Assembly: GCF_019656655.1 (NCBI RefSeq)
Contig: NZ_BPMV01000002.1
Location: 248,001 to 312,000 of the forward strand
Length of the DNA stretch: 64,000 bases
Source of the DNA: Tsukamurella sp. TY48
GTDB taxonomy: Bacteria > Actinomycetota > Actinomycetes > Mycobacteriales > Mycobacteriaceae
Direction of reading: 5' to 3'
Positions 37,878 to 47,768 of the stretch are shown piece after piece. The notes under the pieces are model-generated. The model was not told where the DNA came from. It saw only the letters and a list, made by a program, of their open reading frames with translations, and searched no databases. The first letter of the stretch is position 1, and each line of letters opens with the position of its first letter. Both the position numbers and the translations under genes were made by a program.

Positions 37878-38762
37878 TTGACCGAACCACTGCGTGTGGG
37901 ACTGATCGGCGCCGGACCGTGGGCGCAGGAAACACATGCCCCCGCGCTCGCCGCGCATCCCGGGATCGACTTCGTCGGGGGCTGGGCCCGCAACCCCGCC
38001 GCGGCGGATGCGCTGTTCCCGCGCACCTTCGACTCACCCGAAGCCCTGTTCAGCGCCGTGGACGCCGTGGCCTTCGCCGTCCCGCCGAACGTGCAGGCCC
38101 CGCTCGCGATCGCCGCCGCGCAGGCGGGCAAGCACCTGATCCTCGACAAGCCGATCGCCCTGGACCTGGACGCGGCCACGCAGCTGGCCGCCGCGGTCTC
38201 CGCCGCGGGAGTCCGGTCGATCGTCGCCTTCACCCGGCGCTTCGCCCCGGAGACGCGCGAGTTCGTCGACCGCGCCTGCGCGATCACGCCCGTCGCCGTG
38301 GAGGCGCAGTGGCTGTCCGGTGCGGCACTGAGCGGCAAGTTCGCCGCCTCGGCCTGGCGCCAGGAACAGGGCGCCCTGTTCGATGTGGGCCCGCACATCC
38401 TCGACCTCGTCGACGCCGCCGCCGGACCGGTCTCGTCGGTGTCCGCCGCTCGATACGACGCGCCCAGCGACACCTGGACGGTGCAGCTCGACCACGCCGA
38501 CGGTGCCGCATCGTCGATCTCCCTGTCGCTGCGGACGCCCGCGATCCCCACCGTGATGCGCGTGTCCGCGCACTCCACCACCGGAATCGCCGTACTGGAC
38601 AGCCGTGAGACCTCGTCGGCGGAGTGCTTCCGGGTGCTGCTCGACGAGTTCCTGGACTCGATCGCCACCGGCGTCGACCACCCGCTGGGTGTGCTCCGCG
38701 GGCTCGCGCTGCAACGGGTGATCACGCAGATCCAGGAGGCGCAGTGTCCGTCGGGCGGGTGA
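37878..38762 (+). CDS. Gfo/Idh/MocA family oxidoreductase
   Basis: 294 residues. N-terminal Rossmann domain with VGLIGAGPWAQETHAPAL (GxGxxA, about residue 7) and the family AGKHLILDKPIALDL (E/DKP catalytic loop, about residue 88), then an alpha/beta substrate domain. TTG 37878 is chosen over the frame start at 37821: GAGAGGGAG lies just upstream and the shorter start gives the normal N-terminus (LTEPLRVGLIG). NAD(P)-dependent oxidation of a sugar-like compound is the family role; substrate unknown. The next gene starts 19 bp inside its 3' end. Confidence 0.85.
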   Translation: MTEPLRVGLIGAGPWAQETHAPALAAHPGIDFVGGWARNPAAADALFPRTFDSPEALFSAVDAVAFAVPPNVQAPLAIAAAQAGKHLILDKPIALDLDAATQLAAAVSAAGVRSIVAFTRRFAPETREFVDRACAITPVAVEAQWLSGAALSGKFAASAWRQEQGALFDVGPHILDLVDAAAGPVSSVSAARYDAPSDTWTVQLDHADGAASSISLSLRTPAIPTVMRVSAHSTTGIAVLDSRETSSAECFRVLLDEFLDSIATGVDHPLGVLRGLALQRVITQIQEAQCPSGG

Positions 38763-41287
38763 GCCCGCCGCCGGCCGAGACCCCGTTCGACGACGGCTTC
38801 TACCGAGCCGTGGTGGACCGGTCGGTCGACGGCTTCTTCGTGCACGACGAGGAGGGGCGCCTCGTCGCCGTCAACGACCAGGCGTGCACCAGCACCGGGT
38901 ACACCCGCGACGAGCTCCTGCAGATGAATGCCCTCGACATCGTGCAGGTGACCACGGACCTCGCCCGGAGCGGCTGGGCTCTCGCCTTCGCCGGCGAGAC
39001 GATCCTGATCCCCGCGATGCACCGCCGCAAGGACGGGTCCCTGTTCCCCATCGAGGCGCACATCTCGAGCCAGGTGATCGACGGTCGCCGGTACATCGTG
39101 GGCCTCACGCGTGACATCACCGACCGCGTCGAGGCCGATGCCGCCAAGCTGGAGGCCACGCGACGGCTCGAGGCGCGCATGGAGGCGACGCGGACCTCCT
39201 CGCAGCAGGTGGCGAATCTGCTGCAGGCCGTGATCGACGCCGCACCGGACCTGGTGTACATCAAGGACCGGCAGGGTCGGTACCTGTACATCAACGCCGC
39301 CGTCGCGGAGCTGGCCGGCGTCGCCCGCGAGGACGCGATCGGATACGACGACACGGTGCTCTTCCCCGGTGCGCTCGCGAAGGAGCTGATGGCCACCGAT
39401 CGCGACATCATGGACACCGGCATCGGCCGCGAGGTCGAGGAGTATCCGTTCGTCGACGGGGTCAAGCGCACGTACCTGTCGAACAAGTCCCCGCACCGCG
39501 ACGCCGAGGGCCGCGTGATCGGCCTGATCGGCATCTCGCGTGACATCACCGCGAGCCGGATCGATCAGGAACTGTTGCGGCACAGCGAGGCCCGGTGGCA
39601 GTTCGCCATCGACGGGGCGGGCGACGGCATCTGGGACTGGGATGTCCCCTCGGGAGCGGTCTTCTTCTCCCATCAGTGGAAGGCCATGCTCGGCTACTCC
39701 GACGACGAGGTCGGCGCCACGGTGTCCGAGTGGGTCGAGCGGGTGCACACGGACGATTTCGATCGCTGCTGGGCCATCGTGCGAGGTGTGGTCCAGGGCC
39801 GTGCGACGGAGTACGAGTTCGAGCACCGCATGCGGACCAAGGATGGTGCGTGGCGTTGGATCCTGAGCCGGGGCCGGGTGATGGAGCGCGACGCCGAGGG
39901 CTTGCCGAGCCGCCTGATCGGGACGCACACCGACATCACCGAGCGGCACGAGAACGAGGACGAGATCCGCGAACTCACCGAGCGGCTGCAGTGGCGGGCG
40001 GATCACGACGATCTCACCGAGCTGTTAGGGCGCACCGCCTTCATCGAGCGGGCGACCCGGATCGTCGAAGAGCGCCGGACGGACGGCGCCACGCTCGCCC
40101 TGCTGTGGATCGACCTCGACACGTTCACCCGGATCAATGATTCCCTCGGGCACGATCTCGGCGACCACGTGCTCGCGGAGGTGGCCCGGCGGCTGGCGGC
40201 GTCCGGCCGGCCCGACGATCTGGTCGCCCGGCTGGGTGGCGACGAGTTCGTCGTCCTGCGCCCGCGGGTCGACGAGGGCGACGATCTGCCGGCGTGGACC
40301 GAAGACGTCCGGCTCGCCCTCGCGGAACCCATGGATGTGGACGGGATCCTGCTCACGGTCACGTGCTCGATCGGTCTCGTCGAGTCGAACGGCTCGGACG
40401 ACGACGTCACGCAGTTGCTGATCGACGGTGATACCGCTCTGTTGCAAGCGAAACGGGCGGGCCGTAACCGCATCGTCCGGCACACCACCGGGCTGCGTGC
40501 GACCCAGCACCAGCGCGCCGATCTCGCCGCACACCTGCGCTCCACCATCGAGACCGGCGACATCATCGTGCGGTATCAGCCGGTGATCGACCTCGCCACC
40601 GGGGCGATGGTGGGTGCCGAGGCGCTCACCCGACTGATCGGCCCGGGCGGTGACGAGCTCACGCCGCCGCAGTTCCTCCCGCACCTGGAGGCACTGGGCC
40701 TGATGCCCTCGCTCGCCTCCCTCGTGCTGCGCCGGGCCTGCGTCGAATTCGCCTCCGCGCCCGACCTGGGGTGGGTGTCGGTCAACCTCGCCTCGGAGGA
40801 CCTCTCGGCGCCGCACCTTCCCGCCACCGTCGCGCGGACCATCGAGGCGACCGGTCTGGCCGCGGAGCGGTTGATCCTGGAGATCAACGAGCGGGTGGTT
40901 CCGGAGCCGCACATCCTGGCCGCGACCCGGCGACTGGCCGAGCTCGGGCCGCGGATCGCACTGGACGACTTCGGGACCGGTTGGTCGAGCCTCGCGCAGC
41001 TCAAGGACCTCGAGCTCGCCCTGGTGAAGATCGACCGGTCGGTGGTCACCGCGTCGACGGTGCACGACAATCCGCAGTTGGAGGCCATGCTGGCGGCCGC
41101 GATCGCGATGGCCCGGGCGCTCGACCTGGAGGTGATCGCCGAGGGCATCGAGCGGCAGGCGGAATCATCGGCGCTCGTCGCCGCCGGGGCGCAGTTCGGC
41201 CAGGGATACCTCTTCAGCCGCGCCATCGACTTCGACGAGCTGCGCCGGTGGCGCGCCTCCCGCGACCACGAGGGCCTGCTCGGCTGA
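38744..41287 (+). CDS. PAS-GGDEF-EAL cyclic-di-GMP regulatory protein
   Basis: 847 residues, cytoplasmic: three PAS domains (about 15-130, 165-285, 290-415; the last has a PAC-type ending DGAWRWILSRGRV), a GGDEF domain (RLGGDEFVVLR, about residue 495) and an EAL domain (GAEALTR, about residue 624). Diguanylate cyclase residues and all EAL metal/catalytic positions (E in EAL, VSVNLA Asn, LEINE, DDFGTG, VKID, AEGIE, GQGYLF) are present, so both c-di-GMP synthesis and breakdown are possible. No membrane segment. GTG 38744 follows AGGAGG and overlaps the Gfo/Idh gene; GTG 38759 is the alternative. The PAS ligand is unknown. Confidence 0.92.
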   Translation: MSVGRVSPPPAETPFDDGFYRAVVDRSVDGFFVHDEEGRLVAVNDQACTSTGYTRDELLQMNALDIVQVTTDLARSGWALAFAGETILIPAMHRRKDGSLFPIEAHISSQVIDGRRYIVGLTRDITDRVEADAAKLEATRRLEARMEATRTSSQQVANLLQAVIDAAPDLVYIKDRQGRYLYINAAVAELAGVAREDAIGYDDTVLFPGALAKELMATDRDIMDTGIGREVEEYPFVDGVKRTYLSNKSPHRDAEGRVIGLIGISRDITASRIDQELLRHSEARWQFAIDGAGDGIWDWDVPSGAVFFSHQWKAMLGYSDDEVGATVSEWVERVHTDDFDRCWAIVRGVVQGRATEYEFEHRMRTKDGAWRWILSRGRVMERDAEGLPSRLIGTHTDITERHENEDEIRELTERLQWRADHDDLTELLGRTAFIERATRIVEERRTDGATLALLWIDLDTFTRINDSLGHDLGDHVLAEVARRLAASGRPDDLVARLGGDEFVVLRPRVDEGDDLPAWTEDVRLALAEPMDVDGILLTVTCSIGLVESNGSDDDVTQLLIDGDTALLQAKRAGRNRIVRHTTGLRATQHQRADLAAHLRSTIETGDIIVRYQPVIDLATGAMVGAEALTRLIGPGGDELTPPQFLPHLEALGLMPSLASLVLRRACVEFASAPDLGWVSVNLASEDLSAPHLPATVARTIEATGLAAERLILEINERVVPEPHILAATRRLAELGPRIALDDFGTGWSSLAQLKDLELALVKIDRSVVTASTVHDNPQLEAMLAAAIAMARALDLEVIAEGIERQAESSALVAAGAQFGQGYLFSRAIDFDELRRWRASRDHEGLLG

Positions 41288-41706: not shown

Positions 41707-43005
41707 TCAGGCCAGGTTGCCGGCCAGGTATTCCGCGTAGGCCGGAAGGTCGAGCTGACCATGGCCGGACAGTCCGATCACGAGGACCTCGTCGGAGTGC
41801 TCCCGCGCGTAGCTCGCGGCGGCCGCGATGGCGTGGGTCGATTCCGGGGCCGGCACGATGCCCTGGCTGCGGGCGAACTGCACGCCGGCGGCGAAGGCCT
41901 CGTTCTGCTCGATCGCCACGCCCTCGACCAGTCCGAGCTCCACCGTGTGGCTCAGCGCGGGCGACATGCCGTGGTAGCGCAGCCCACCCGCGTGGATCGG
42001 GTCGGGAACGAAGTCCATGCCCAGGGTGTGCATCTTCAGCAACGGGGTCAGGCCCGCCACGTCGCCGTGGTCGTAGCGGTACTCCCCCTTCGTGATCGAC
42101 GGGCAGGCCGCGGGCTCGGCGGCCACGATCCGCGGGTTCTGCCGGCCGTGGATCTTCTCCCGCAGGAACGGGAACGCGAGACCCGCGAGGTTGGAACCGC
42201 CGCCCGCGCAACCGAAGACCACGTCGGCGCCCTTCTCGTGCAGATTCAGCTGGTCCACCGCCTCCAGGCCGATCACGGACTGGTGCAGCACCACGTGATT
42301 GAGCACGCTGCCCAGCGCGTACCGGGCGTCCGGGTCCTGCGCGGCCACCTCGACGGCCTCCGAGACGGCCATGCCCAGGCTGCCGCTGGTGTTCGGGTCC
42401 TTCTCCAGCATCGCGCGGCCCGACGCGGTGAGATCCGAGGGACTGGGATGCACGGTGCCGCCGTAGGTGCGCATGAGGTGACCGCGGTAGGGCTTGGAAT
42501 CGAACGAGGCCCGCACCTGCCAGATCTCCACGTCGATGCCGAACTGGGCGCCGGCGAAGGAGAGCGCGCTCCCCCACTGTCCGGCACCGGTCTCGGTGGT
42601 CAGCTTCTTCACACCGTCGAGCGAGTTGTAGTAGGCCTGCGCCACCGCGGAGTTGGTCTTGTGCGAACCCACCGGGCTCACACCCTCGTACTTGACGTAG
42701 ATCCGGCAGCTGGTGCCGAGTGCGTTCTCGAACTTCCGCGCACGGATGAGCGGCGACGGCCGCCACAGGGCCAGGATCTCGCGGACCGGCTCGGGGATCT
42801 CGTGGTACGCCTCGGTGGACCCCTCCTGCGCGATCAGGCCGCTCGCGAACAGCGGCGCCAGATCCTCCGGCTGCACCGGCTGCTTGGTCCCCGGATGCAG
42901 GTGCGGTGGGATCGGGGTCGAAAGCTCAGCGGCCAGGTTGTACCAGTGAGTGGGTACCTCCACCACGGTGATGTCGCGCTGATCGAGGTCCTGCGAGTGA
43001 GTCAT
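41707..43005 (-). CDS. TrpB-like pyridoxal-phosphate enzyme (TrpB2)
   Basis: 432 residues, fold type II PLP enzyme of the TrpB2 group (longer than TrpB1, about 400). The PLP lysine is in VSPVGSHKTNSAVAQAYY (about residue 115), the glycine-rich phosphate loop is FGCAGGGSNLAG, and the active-site ETGAGQWGSAL is conserved. The N-terminal extension (THWYNLAAELSTPIPPHLHPG) is typical of TrpB2. It condenses indole with serine in studied relatives, but no trpA or other trp gene is near; a free-standing indole salvage role is inferred. ATG 43005 has TAGGGT 7 nt upstream. Confidence 0.9.
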   Translation of the reverse strand: MTHSQDLDQRDITVVEVPTHWYNLAAELSTPIPPHLHPGTKQPVQPEDLAPLFASGLIAQEGSTEAYHEIPEPVREILALWRPSPLIRARKFENALGTSCRIYVKYEGVSPVGSHKTNSAVAQAYYNSLDGVKKLTTETGAGQWGSALSFAGAQFGIDVEIWQVRASFDSKPYRGHLMRTYGGTVHPSPSDLTASGRAMLEKDPNTSGSLGMAVSEAVEVAAQDPDARYALGSVLNHVVLHQSVIGLEAVDQLNLHEKGADVVFGCAGGGSNLAGLAFPFLREKIHGRQNPRIVAAEPAACPSITKGEYRYDHGDVAGLTPLLKMHTLGMDFVPDPIHAGGLRYHGMSPALSHTVELGLVEGVAIEQNEAFAAGVQFARSQGIVPAPESTHAIAAAASYAREHSDEVLVIGLSGHGQLDLPAYAEYLAGNLA

Positions 43006-44374: not shown

Positions 44375-45385
44375 TCAGGTCTGCAACAGCGCGGCCGCAG
44401 CGAAATCGCCGGCGTGCGCGAAAGCCGCCAGCACCACCGGTTCGCCTCGATCGATCCGGCCCTGAGCCAGCGATGTGGCGAGCGTGTGGGGCACCCCGAC
44501 CGCGAACAGGTTGCCGCACTCGTCGAAGGTGTCGGGATGGCGCTCCGGCGGGAGTTCCAGCGCCTCACGCCAATTCCGCAGGAAGGTCCGGTTCGGCTGA
44601 TTCGTCACGAGGTGGCCCACCTCGGGTCCGCGCAGTCCGCCCGCCGCGGCGGCGGCGAGTGCCACCTCGGGGACGAGCCGGTTGCCCCGCGCGAGGACCT
44701 TGGCGATCTTCGACTCGGTGAAGCCCACGTGGAGCTGCCCGCTGCCCGCCTCCCAGTACTTGCGCGGCGGATCGATCGCGGCCGTCATATCGCCGGCGTA
44801 CTCGCTGTGCTGCGCGAGCACCACCTCGCGCACCGTGATGCCTTCGCCGTCCGCTGCGGCGGAGACCACCGCGGCGGCGGCACCGTCGCCCGGGATGGCG
44901 GCCTGCGGAAGTGTGCGCACGCGGTCCTGGGTGAAGACGTTCCCGGCCGCGTTCGTCGCCGTGAGCAGCAGTGCCGTGCGGGCGGTGCCCGCGGCGAACA
45001 GGGTGCGGGCCAGGTGCAGCATCAGGATGAACGCGGCGCAGCCGCCGTTGTGCAGATCGAGCACGAGCGAGGGCGACAGCTTCAGCCGCCTCGCCACGTC
45101 GCCGCCGCACCCCACCACCGGGAGGTCGGGCAGCTGGGAGTGGGTGAGGATCACATCGACCCCGGCCACGGCGGCGGCAGCGGGCTCGGGCAGCCGTTCG
45201 ATCGCCGCGCACATGAGGTCGACATTGGACTCCTCGGGCCCCGCATGATGCCGGAACGCGGGAGGCGCGAACATCGGGTTCTCGGACAGCGTCCGGCTGT
45301 CGGCGTCGGCGAATTCCCGGAAGTACGAGGCGGGTACGCGGTTCGCGGGTAGATAGGACGCGAGGCCCATGATGTGGGTGTCCAT
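44375..45385 (-). CDS. KAS III-like (FabH-type) acyl-transferring enzyme
   Basis: 336 residues of the thiolase superfamily: N-terminal MGLASYLPANRVP, the catalytic Cys in DLHNGGCAAFILML (C116), a glycine-rich PGDGAAAAVVSA, and the C-terminal pair VTNQPNRTF and FDECGNLFAVGVP. In FabH the third motif is HQAN; here His is Asn, while the last Asn (GN) is kept. Such changes are seen in KAS III relatives that transfer acyl groups without a decarboxylating condensation. Last gene of a three-gene operon: ATG 45385 overlaps the START-like stop as TGATG. Acyl donor and acceptor unknown. Confidence 0.8.
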   Translation of the reverse strand: MDTHIMGLASYLPANRVPASYFREFADADSRTLSENPMFAPPAFRHHAGPEESNVDLMCAAIERLPEPAAAAVAGVDVILTHSQLPDLPVVGCGGDVARRLKLSPSLVLDLHNGGCAAFILMLHLARTLFAAGTARTALLLTATNAAGNVFTQDRVRTLPQAAIPGDGAAAAVVSAAADGEGITVREVVLAQHSEYAGDMTAAIDPPRKYWEAGSGQLHVGFTESKIAKVLARGNRLVPEVALAAAAAGGLRGPEVGHLVTNQPNRTFLRNWREALELPPERHPDTFDECGNLFAVGVPHTLATSLAQGRIDRGEPVVLAAFAHAGDFAAAALLQT

Positions 45386-46017
45386 CACGCCATCCACTCC
45401 GGACGGATGGGCAGTCCTCGCGCGTGCCGATGCTCGGCGATGGCGGTGAGGTTGTCGAGTTCGAGCTGGTGGCCGGCCGAGAACATGTCCCAGAAGTCGC
45501 CGACCCAGACGGGGCGTTCGGGTGGCGCTGTCTCGGGGTACGGGTTCTCGTCGTAGAACGGATGGTGGCAATTGGTCCAGAGCACCACGGAACCCGGCTT
45601 GTTGAAGACGGCCTGCGCGTCCACCACCCGCATCAGGTAGATCATCCACAGGTGTTTCCCCTGATCCCAGGCGCAGTGGTAGTCCACGGTGCGAGCGGTG
45701 GGCTCGGCGACGGTGCGGGTGTAGATCTCGGTCTGGTCGCCGAGCATGTCGCGGGCCACCCACAGTCCGGGTTCGTCGGTGCGCTCGAAACCGCGCAGGC
45801 TGTACGTCCACTCCTCCAGCGAACGGGTGTCGGCGAGCCATGCGTACAACTCGTCCGGCGGCGCGTTCACATAGCCCTGCACGGTGCAGAAGTCGCCGAA
45901 GACCTGCTGGTGCGGGTATACCGACCGGAGCCGGTCCAGCACCAGTGGAGTGGCGACCGGGCGCGGATGGCTCTCGATCCGGATGGTTCCTTCGATGTCG
46001 TCCAGGGGCGGGATCAT
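45385..46017 (-). CDS. SRPBCC/START-like protein
   Basis: 210 residues. The central TVQGYVNAPPDELYAWLADTRSLEEW looks like the N-terminal strand-helix of the SRPBCC (Bet v1/aromatase-cyclase) fold and is followed by long strands (TVDYHCAWDQGKHLWMIYLMRV). The C-terminus DMFSAGHQLELDNLTAIAEHRHARG forms the long closing helix. Possible lipophilic ligand binding or cyclase role. ATG 46017 overlaps the upstream gene's TGA (ATGA) and its stop overlaps the next ATG, so translation is coupled on both sides. Confidence 0.7.
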   Translation of the reverse strand: MIPPLDDIEGTIRIESHPRPVATPLVLDRLRSVYPHQQVFGDFCTVQGYVNAPPDELYAWLADTRSLEEWTYSLRGFERTDEPGLWVARDMLGDQTEIYTRTVAEPTARTVDYHCAWDQGKHLWMIYLMRVVDAQAVFNKPGSVVLWTNCHHPFYDENPYPETAPPERPVWVGDFWDMFSAGHQLELDNLTAIAEHRHARGLPIRPEWMA

Positions 46018-47666
46018 CGGGGCTCCTTCGCGGTGGCGGGCAGGATGGCGGCGAACGGTGGGATCTCAAGCGGATCGGTGTCGATCACCAGGCACTCCGG
46101 TCCGTCGCGCGTCTCGGCGAGATCGAGGGCGGCCGTACGGATCTCGTCGACGGTGCCGGCGGTGCGCACCCGCATGGTGGGGAACATCGCGGCCAGCCCG
46201 TCGCCGATGCGGGTGTGCCGGAACAGGTTCAGGCTGGGGAGATCGGAGAAGAAGCGCTCCTCCCGGGCCACGCACATGCCGTGGGCGTCGTTGTTGAACA
46301 CCACCAGCAGCACCGGCGCGTTCGCCTCGATCGCGGTGTGGATCTCCATACCGTGCATGTAGAAGGCGCCGTCACCGGCGAGGATCACCGTGCGGCGCCC
46401 GGTGGCGATCGCGGCGCCCACGCCGGCGGCGATGCCGAAGCCCATCCCGCCCATGCCGAGGGCCACCACGAACCGGGAGCCGGTGCCCAGCGGGAGGCGA
46501 TGCACGGCGGCGGCGCCGGCGTTGCCGGCATCGGCGAAGACGAGGGCGTCCGGCGGGATGGTCTCCGCCAGGGTGTCGACGGCGTCCGCGCAGGTGATCC
46601 GGCCGCTCTCCGGGCGAGGCACGACGATCGGCTCGGGCCCGGCCGTGGTCCACGGGGGCCGGTCCGGCCCCGGACCGAGCCCGGTGACGAGGCCGCGGAT
46701 GTACCCCGGTACGTCGGGAGCCGGTTCGTGTACGGACACCTCGAACAGCGGCGGCTGCGCATCGGCGTGCACGGTGAAGGTCGCTCGGAGGGCGGGCTCC
46801 AGCCCACCGCGATCCATGACATCGAGATCGGTGCCGAGGGCGAGGATCAGATCGGCTTCCCCCGCCGCACGGACGACCGACGGGTGGCCCATCACGCCGG
46901 ACACGCCCACGGTGCGCCCGTCCCCGAGCGCCAGGTCTCGGCCGTTCGGTCCCACCGCGATCACCGCGCCCGTCGCCCGGGCCAGGTCACCCACCGCGCG
47001 GCCGACGCGGGCCCGCGACGCCGCACCGCCGAGCAGGATCAGGGGTCGCCGCGCCGCCCGGAGCGCGTCGATCACCTCGGCGGACGGCGCGATGGTGGGC
47101 GGTGACGCGTAATGACGCTCGGCCGGCATCTCCTGCGCGTCCGCGACCTGGACGTCCTTGGGGAGGAGAAGGGCCGCGGGGAGCCCGCTGTCGAGGGCGT
47201 CGAAGGCGCCCGCGAGCGCGGGCCCGAGGTCCGACGGTGCGCCCACCCGCGCCGAGTATCCGGTGACGGCGCGGAACAGGGCCGGAGCGTCGACACTGCG
47301 CGGCGCGTTGCACATGTCCTGGAACGCGCCGTGCCCCTCCGAACCGGTGGGCGGGCAGCCGATGAGGGCGAGCACCGGCACCCGGGACTGGTACGCCTCC
47401 GCGAGTGCGGGAACGCAATTCATCGCGGCGCCGCCCGATGTCGCGATCAGGCAGCTGGGCCGACCGGTGATGCGGGTGGCACCGTCGGCCATGGCGCCCG
47501 CGCCGAACTCGTGTTTGGCGATGGTCAGCCGGACCCGCCGGTCGCGGGGCGCGCGGAGCAGTGCCGCGAACAGATCCTCCGAGTTGGCGCCGTGGATACC
47601 GTACGCGTTACGAATCCCATACCCATACAACGCATCTGCTAGTGCACTTGCGCAGTTCGGCGTCAC
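46014..47666 (-). CDS. Thiamine-diphosphate-dependent decarboxylase/synthase
   Basis: 550 residues in the three-domain ThDP order: N-terminal Pyr domain with the activating Glu (AKHEFGAGAMADGATRITG) and ATSGGAAMN; a central Rossmann-like domain (PLILLGGAASRARVGRAV); and a C-terminal PP domain with the GDG…NN cofactor motif (LAGDGAFYMHGMEIHTAIE…VVFNNDAHG). It resembles acetolactate synthase, phosphonopyruvate decarboxylase and acyl-decarboxylating relatives but I cannot pick one. GTG 47666 is chosen because TACTGT lies 7 nt upstream. First gene of the operon with the START-like and KAS III-like genes. Confidence 0.82.
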   Translation of the reverse strand: MTPNCASALADALYGYGIRNAYGIHGANSEDLFAALLRAPRDRRVRLTIAKHEFGAGAMADGATRITGRPSCLIATSGGAAMNCVPALAEAYQSRVPVLALIGCPPTGSEGHGAFQDMCNAPRSVDAPALFRAVTGYSARVGAPSDLGPALAGAFDALDSGLPAALLLPKDVQVADAQEMPAERHYASPPTIAPSAEVIDALRAARRPLILLGGAASRARVGRAVGDLARATGAVIAVGPNGRDLALGDGRTVGVSGVMGHPSVVRAAGEADLILALGTDLDVMDRGGLEPALRATFTVHADAQPPLFEVSVHEPAPDVPGYIRGLVTGLGPGPDRPPWTTAGPEPIVVPRPESGRITCADAVDTLAETIPPDALVFADAGNAGAAAVHRLPLGTGSRFVVALGMGGMGFGIAAGVGAAIATGRRTVILAGDGAFYMHGMEIHTAIEANAPVLLVVFNNDAHGMCVAREERFFSDLPSLNLFRHTRIGDGLAAMFPTMRVRTAGTVDEIRTAALDLAETRDGPECLVIDTDPLEIPPFAAILPATAKEPR

Positions 47667-47679: not shown

Positions 47680-47768
47680 GGCCCGTGTGACTCGCACCAC
47701 AAGGAAGGTCCGCAGGACGAAGGATTGACCGTCAGATGCATTGCACCGGAATGTATCTGCGTACCGGA

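Follow-up and report, generated by a model that had tools for sequence, protein, structure and literature searches.

Enzymes that build the carbazole ring are known from antioxidants made by Streptomyces. We examined a stretch of 64,000 nucleotides from Tsukamurella sp. TY48 (contig NZ_BPMV01000002.1, positions 248,001 to 312,000; the whole stretch is called the window below), in which a compact minus-strand operon at 44375–47666 is predicted to encode a thiamine diphosphate (ThDP)-dependent carboligase, a START-fold cyclase and an enzyme resembling β-ketoacyl synthase (KAS) III. The same three gene types lie together in two described systems: cqsB1-cqsB2-cqsB3 for carquinostatin in Streptomyces exfoliatus, with genes for a ThDP enzyme, a carbazole synthase and a KAS III-like enzyme, and nzsJ-nzsI-nzsH for neocarazostatin in Streptomyces sp. 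MA37. According to PMC7466098, CqsB3 is a ThDP enzyme acting on indole-3-pyruvate and pyruvate, CqsB1 is a KAS III-like enzyme that performs a decarboxylative condensation with an acyl-acyl carrier protein (acyl-ACP), CqsB2 closes the ring, and FabG, FabD and a phosphopantetheinyl transferase are borrowed from fatty acid metabolism. Lipocarbazoles, which are antioxidants, have been reported from Tsukamurella pseudospumae Acta 1857, as the title of reference 7 in PMC7466098 states; PMC7466098 classes them as 3-oxygenated carbazoles, and PMC11350554 gives their framework as 1-alkyl-2-methylcarbazole. The literature searched, mostly without subscription journals, yielded neither a gene cluster for lipocarbazoles nor a paper tying mycobacteria to the genes considered here.

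Comparison with these systems suggests that the operon probably encodes a lipocarbazole-type core pathway, with lipocarbazoles such as those reported from T. pseudospumae as the likely product class. Its genes are arranged as follows:

47666–46014, minus strand: ThDP-dependent carboligase gene, 550 aa, GTG start, intact open reading frame
46017–45385, minus strand: START-fold cyclase gene, 210 aa, ATG start, intact open reading frame
45385–44375, minus strand: KAS III-like gene, 336 aa, ATG start, intact open reading frame

The ThDP and cyclase genes overlap by 4 bp (ATGA) and the cyclase and KAS genes by 1 bp (TGATG). These overlaps, the common strand and a TACTGT promoter had been described in an original prediction made from the sequence alone, and they are confirmed by the open reading frames and by the recurrence of the promoter element in 9/9 loci of the genus. 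Its scheme of ThDP carboligation, KAS acyl condensation and START cyclisation leading to a small metabolite agrees with published homologous enzymes. Its statement that the trio fits no known pathway no longer holds: the predicted products correspond to CqsB3-CqsB2-CqsB1 and NzsH-NzsI-NzsJ, as judged from homology to CqsB2 and from PMC7466098.

The middle protein, the cyclase, has no Pfam match. A phmmer search against solved structures matched it to CqsB2 (6ipv) with an E-value of 7.7e-48, the sole other match up to E = 10 being an antibody chain (0.59), and 79 of 176 aligned residues are identical between the window cyclase and the CqsB2 fragment. The CqsB2 mechanism in PMC7466098 involves five named residues, Tyr144, Tyr172, His206, Glu209 and Glu105. 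Counterparts of the first four are conserved in 81/81 cyclases, a set comprising the window and 80 relatives. These relatives are the best 80 of 484 relative-encoding matches (from 512 pattern matches in a scan of genome contigs), so counts over the 80 loci describe near relatives. On these grounds the middle gene is predicted to encode a carbazole synthase-like START-fold cyclase, homologous to CqsB2 and NzsI.

The first protein matches all three Pfam domains TPP_enzyme_N, TPP_enzyme_M and TPP_enzyme_C. The activating Glu and the GDG motif are each present in 79/79 rows of ThDP enzymes, which together with the domains places the protein among acetolactate synthase-like ThDP-dependent carboligases. 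Its closest solved chain is BbmA (8x3x; 1.1e-43 with the single sequence and 1.4e-86 with a profile), and CsmA (8x3z) stands fourth among the solved-chain matches; the literature searched held nothing usable on the BbmA and CsmA pathways. We predict that this enzyme is the CqsB3/NzsH counterpart and joins indole-3-pyruvate as donor to pyruvate as acceptor. The third protein matches ACP_syn_III and ACP_syn_III_C above cut-off and is the putative counterpart of CqsB1 and NzsJ. Its active site reads Cys116-Asn262-Asn292 where FabH has Cys-His-Asn, a departure from the FabH-family triad that is fixed in the group: the catalytic Cys and Asn are present in 81/81 sequences, and 81/81 also have Asn in the column that holds His in FabH. 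Profile alignments to two FabH chains, from a KAS profile search with a cut-off of 1e-5 (at 1e-30 there were no matches), confirmed the position of the His column.

The arrangement of the three genes is conserved. ThDP, cyclase and KAS genes follow one another on one strand, in that order, in 79/80 relatives, the exception being L065, which lacks a ThDP gene next to the cyclase, while L068 is cut by a contig end; order and strand kept at this frequency argue that the arrangement is not due to chance. The original prediction had named rare adjacency of homologues as a ground for doubt, which these counts remove, and had named a known, unrelated primary role for each enzyme as another, for which no fitting match was found. 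The cyclase and KAS genes overlap by 4 or 1 bp in 44/80 loci and the ThDP and cyclase genes overlap in 71/79, counts biased towards overlap by use of the nearest possible start. A cyclase match is present in 15/16 genomes of the genus, in 151/401 sampled genomes of the family, in 42/397 of the order and in 29/394 of the class; the samples overlap and include the genome of the window, and the wider samples take in a few weak or partial matches.

The KAS tree broadly follows genera. The window falls in a clade with four Tsukamurella rows (support 100/100), Gordonia is sister to the Tsukamurella group (99/93), and the window cyclase is 80–84% identical to its nearest named loci, all Tsukamurella; the nearest relative (L134, G004:C1:2190000-2208000) has a cyclase 89% identical. 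One cassette from a genome of another family (L126, G638:C22:407000-424000) was likely acquired by transfer, because it lies inside the Nocardia group in the KAS tree. The same genome also holds a CqsB-like cassette (L125). The locus L125 comes from a genome of the same class, and its cyclase shares 71% identity with the CqsB2 fragment; in the KAS tree the locus sits on a very long branch, which makes its placement unsure. A cassette on a contig labelled Acidobacteriaceae (L009, CAJCHX010000662.1), accompanied by aminotransferase and two-component genes, is placed with Tsukamurella by the KAS tree, and the contig is probably wrongly binned. Three loci from another family of the order (L130, L131, L132) contain ThDP and KAS relatives, the cyclase beside them or nearby, alongside a pair of ACP-like genes and one HMG-synthase-like gene, to which L130 and L131 add enoyl-CoA hydratase-like and polyketide synthase-like genes; with these gene names assigned by eye, they are larger pathways on the same core.

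The published reactions suggest the following scheme. An aromatic aminotransferase encoded elsewhere in the genome would convert tryptophan to indole-3-pyruvate, which the ThDP enzyme would join to pyruvate. By analogy with CqsB1, the KAS enzyme would load its Cys with an acyl group delivered by ACP or CoA and condense this group with the acid from the ThDP step, with loss of CO2. As in CqsB2, the START-fold protein would then hold the unstable product while indole C2 attacks the new ketone, and loss of water and aromatisation would give a 1-alkyl-2-methyl-3-oxygenated carbazole, its alkyl chain derived from the acyl group and its methyl from pyruvate. This substitution matches the 1-alkyl-2-methylcarbazole pattern of the lipocarbazoles of T. 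pseudospumae Acta 1857, a strain of the same genus. We favour a lipocarbazole-type pathway because of the homology to CqsB2, the four of five mechanistic residues kept, the conserved gene order and the supply genes in relatives, and because T. pseudospumae carries the trio (JCM 13375, L008) and the predicted chemistry yields that pattern. The best reading is a minimal lipocarbazole-type core fed by general metabolism.

The operon is minimal, as the original prediction had noted, and neither an ACP nor an aminotransferase gene lies beside the trio in the window. Relatives and general metabolism could explain the missing parts, through an aminotransferase in 70/80 loci, ACP-like and AMP-ligase genes in 3/80 and, according to PMC7466098, the borrowed FabG, FabD and phosphopantetheinyl transferase. 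Neighbouring genes in relatives were called with a home-made codon-composition gene caller, which erred in L005 and L006 by placing wrong-strand open reading frames upstream of the ThDP gene. The aminotransferase gene comes next after KAS in 69 loci, often overlapping it, and follows the ACP and AMP-ligase genes in L039. The one member tested (L022) matches Pfam Aminotran_1_2, with a putative phenylalanine aminotransferase as its best solved match (4.1e-50); the genome of the window encodes, elsewhere, a near match (4e-126) to the same solved protein. Ten loci lack the gene, namely the seven named Tsukamurella loci, L021 (near a contig end), L065 and L076, and two genomes of the genus (G011, G012) have it beside the trio. 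The ACP-like and AMP-ligase genes follow KAS in L039 (Pfam on this locus), L065 and L076, and a genome search added L107 and L124; among NCBIfam models the ligase comes closest to fatty acyl-AMP ligase but scores under the cut-off of that model. Their position after KAS speaks for acyl-ACP as the predicted KAS substrate. A flavodoxin-like gene lies directly upstream of the ThDP gene at L003:5831-6298 (Pfam on L003), with counterparts in L002, L004 and L008, thus in at least four of the seven named Tsukamurella loci; it might provide the reductant if the pathway ends in a mono-oxygenated compound. The corresponding space in the window measures only 102 bp.

The resemblance to the carquinostatin and neocarazostatin systems extends to cyclase homology and to an aminotransferase linked in most of the 80 relatives. 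The differences begin with gene content: the window trio has no adjoining ACP or aminotransferase gene, and the scanned window neighbours (meaB, an esterase and a TrpB-like gene) include neither a prenyltransferase nor a P450. Gene order, compared with the CqsB-like locus L125, is ThDP-cyclase-KAS in the window versus KAS-cyclase-ThDP. The KAS has Asn for the canonical His, which is kept in L125, all 12 other KAS sequences compared having Asn. The counterpart of cyclase Glu105 is Asp in 81/81 sequences; Glu occupies this position in CqsB2, L125 and L129, the last being the sole Glu among 13 other cyclases compared. The window group thus appears to be a sister variant of the characterised carbazole type rather than a simple copy of it.

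Several of these observations weigh against a lipocarbazole product. The two fixed substitutions, Asn for His in the KAS and Asp for Glu105 in the cyclase, mean that substrate or product may differ from those of the characterised carbazoles. With the water-adding step proposed for CqsB2 the ring would become 3,4-oxygenated, which leaves a reductive step unexplained for the 3-oxygenated lipocarbazoles. The T. pseudospumae strain seen to carry the trio, JCM 13375, is a different one from the producer Acta 1857, and the literature searched reported neither a metabolite nor an enzyme activity for this group. In the window, as in the seven named Tsukamurella loci, the aminotransferase gene does not adjoin the trio. 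Within the genus, G013 has no cyclase match, the ThDP frame of G004 (L134) is interrupted by a real break or an assembly error, and the cyclase match at G010:C1:2136354-2136973 (L095, L096) is split into two overlapping pieces in different frames, possibly a sequencing error in a genome rated 83% complete.

The best-surviving alternative keeps the reaction types and changes an arylpyruvate or acyl partner, giving a related cyclised or open acyloin lipid instead of a carbazole. The two substitutions, fixed in 81 rows, set the group apart from L125, the ThDP enzymes of the window and L125 share only 35% identity, and the linked aminotransferase resembles a phenylalanine aminotransferase. Clostridium homologues of NzsH make the acyloin core of the sattazolins, according to PMC9822442, which also mentions scytonemin. 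Set against these points are the four mechanistic residues kept throughout the cyclases and a genus that is itself the reported source of lipocarbazoles, and we regard a changed partner as unlikely.

The operon might instead belong to primary metabolism, as an annex of the methylmalonyl-CoA mutase operon that lies directly upstream, in which meaB was assigned by NCBIfam and mutA and mutB by eye. Only 102 bp separate meaB from the GTG start on the same strand, and this linkage recurs in the seven named Tsukamurella loci. However, in none of the 73 other fetched loci did tblastn detect mut genes; the genes around these cassettes are for the most part of the sigL-rslA type or belong to two-component systems. 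G011 carries meaB on one contig and the cassette, together with its aminotransferase, on a different one. In G013 (L154) the mutA-mutB-meaB, TrpB-like and EAL-type genes are kept and the cassette and esterase are unmatched between them; this locus is a natural empty site. With an operon that also has its own conserved promoter, the gene neighbourhoods disfavour the mut link, and we consider an annex very improbable. We give equally little credence to a decaying, functionless remnant in this lineage: the missing, interrupted and split genes of G013, G004 and G010 and the unlinked aminotransferase would fit decay, but the window has three open frames with catalytic residues kept, and the cyclase persists in nearly all genomes of the genus.

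In scytonemin biosynthesis, ScyA and ScyC are a ThDP indole carboligase and a cyclase. A pathway of that kind is scarcely credible here, since the NCBIfam ScyC match (NF035924; 1.9e-4) that hints at it scores 20.9 bits against a cut-off of 400, CqsB2 is far closer, and scytonemin clusters are not known to include a KAS partner; the assignment was rejected on its score.

Other genes flank the operon. Beyond the esterase gene, 41707–43005 encodes a TrpB-like pyridoxal phosphate enzyme (NCBIfam equivalog, above cut-off). As to a functional link between this gene and the trio, the esterase gene lies between them on the opposite strand, and the cassette-free G013 also has the TrpB-like gene. In Tsukamurella the conserved neighbours include a PAS/GGDEF/EAL-type signalling protein (38744–41287 in the window), assigned from motifs by eye.

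Two regulatory elements are predicted upstream of the ThDP gene:

47702–47674, minus strand: promoter TTGTGG-N17-TACTGT, leaderless-type, predicted from the sequence
47686–47701, minus strand: CRP-like palindrome TGTGG-N6-TCACA, overlapping the promoter, candidate operator

TTGTGG (47702–47697) and TACTGT (47679–47674) are 17 nt apart, with 7 nt from the latter to the GTG start, and the pattern TTGTG-N(16-22)-TAC[TC]GT-N7-GTG occurs in 9/9 Tsukamurella-genus loci (the window, L002–L008 and L134). This element favours GTG at 47666 over ATG at 47741 as the start. Generic sigma-70 and terminator scans of the region returned no sites. The palindrome, which resembles a CRP site, takes the form TGTGR-N6-TCACR in 6/9 of these loci, the window included.

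Relatives in other genera may be controlled differently. An rslA-type gene lies directly upstream in 31/80 loci, usually behind a sigL-type gene, and in the one locus tested (L022) the pair is an extracytoplasmic function sigma factor and a zf-HC2 anti-sigma protein. From 300 bp upstream to 30 bp inside the ThDP gene, the motif TGAAC[CT]-N(15-18)-CGT precedes the cassette in 43/48 Mycobacterium and other loci and in 9/9 Nocardia/Skermania/Antrihabitans loci; it was found in 0/14 Gordonia/Williamsia/L009 loci, 0/7 Tsukamurella loci and 66/2000 random windows of the same length. All 52 positive loci (52/57) have a 16-nt spacer, and the five without the motif (L018, L026, L039, L047, L076) also lack an adjoining sigL-rslA. 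The motif also accompanies sigL in 32/36 cases: 31 copies are upstream of the gene and 1 is just within it, and in one copy the spacer measures 17 nt. A more restrictive form with CGTGT at its end occurs in 24/31 rslA-adjacent loci and 11/54 others, the second set partly overlapping the first, and in only 5/18 sigL upstream regions. Since the motif was chosen after viewing the sequences and the loci are kin by descent, these counts are not independent tests. The literature searched held nothing usable on a published SigL promoter consensus; the argument rests on the upstream region of sigL itself.

SigL may drive the cassette in Mycobacterium- and Nocardia-type loci. No close counterpart of SigL turned up in the genome of the window, the best match being 27% identical. 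PMC3184428 describes M. tuberculosis RslA as a zinc-binding, redox-sensitive anti-sigma factor, and PMC13002591 places rv0737 immediately downstream of sigL-rslA, with the position of its orthologue varying among mycobacteria. The cassette is therefore not between rslA and Rv0737 in M. tuberculosis. A tentative, wider proposal is that an old antioxidant lipid carbazole pathway with a Cys-Asn-Asn condensing enzyme may be widespread in Mycobacteriales, switched by SigL-RslA in Mycobacterium and Nocardia, missing from the rslA–Rv0737 interval of M. tuberculosis, and placed under another promoter in Tsukamurella.

The window cassette would be a variant of an already known carbazole pathway type, and a redox-controlled mycobacterial version is the most interesting of the possible readings. 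If these predictions are true, the operon supplies a candidate gene set for the lipocarbazoles, and a carbazole-type pathway known from Streptomyces would be widespread in mycobacteria and their relatives, as the cyclase in 151/401 family genomes suggests. It would also give SigL an output in environmental and opportunistic species.

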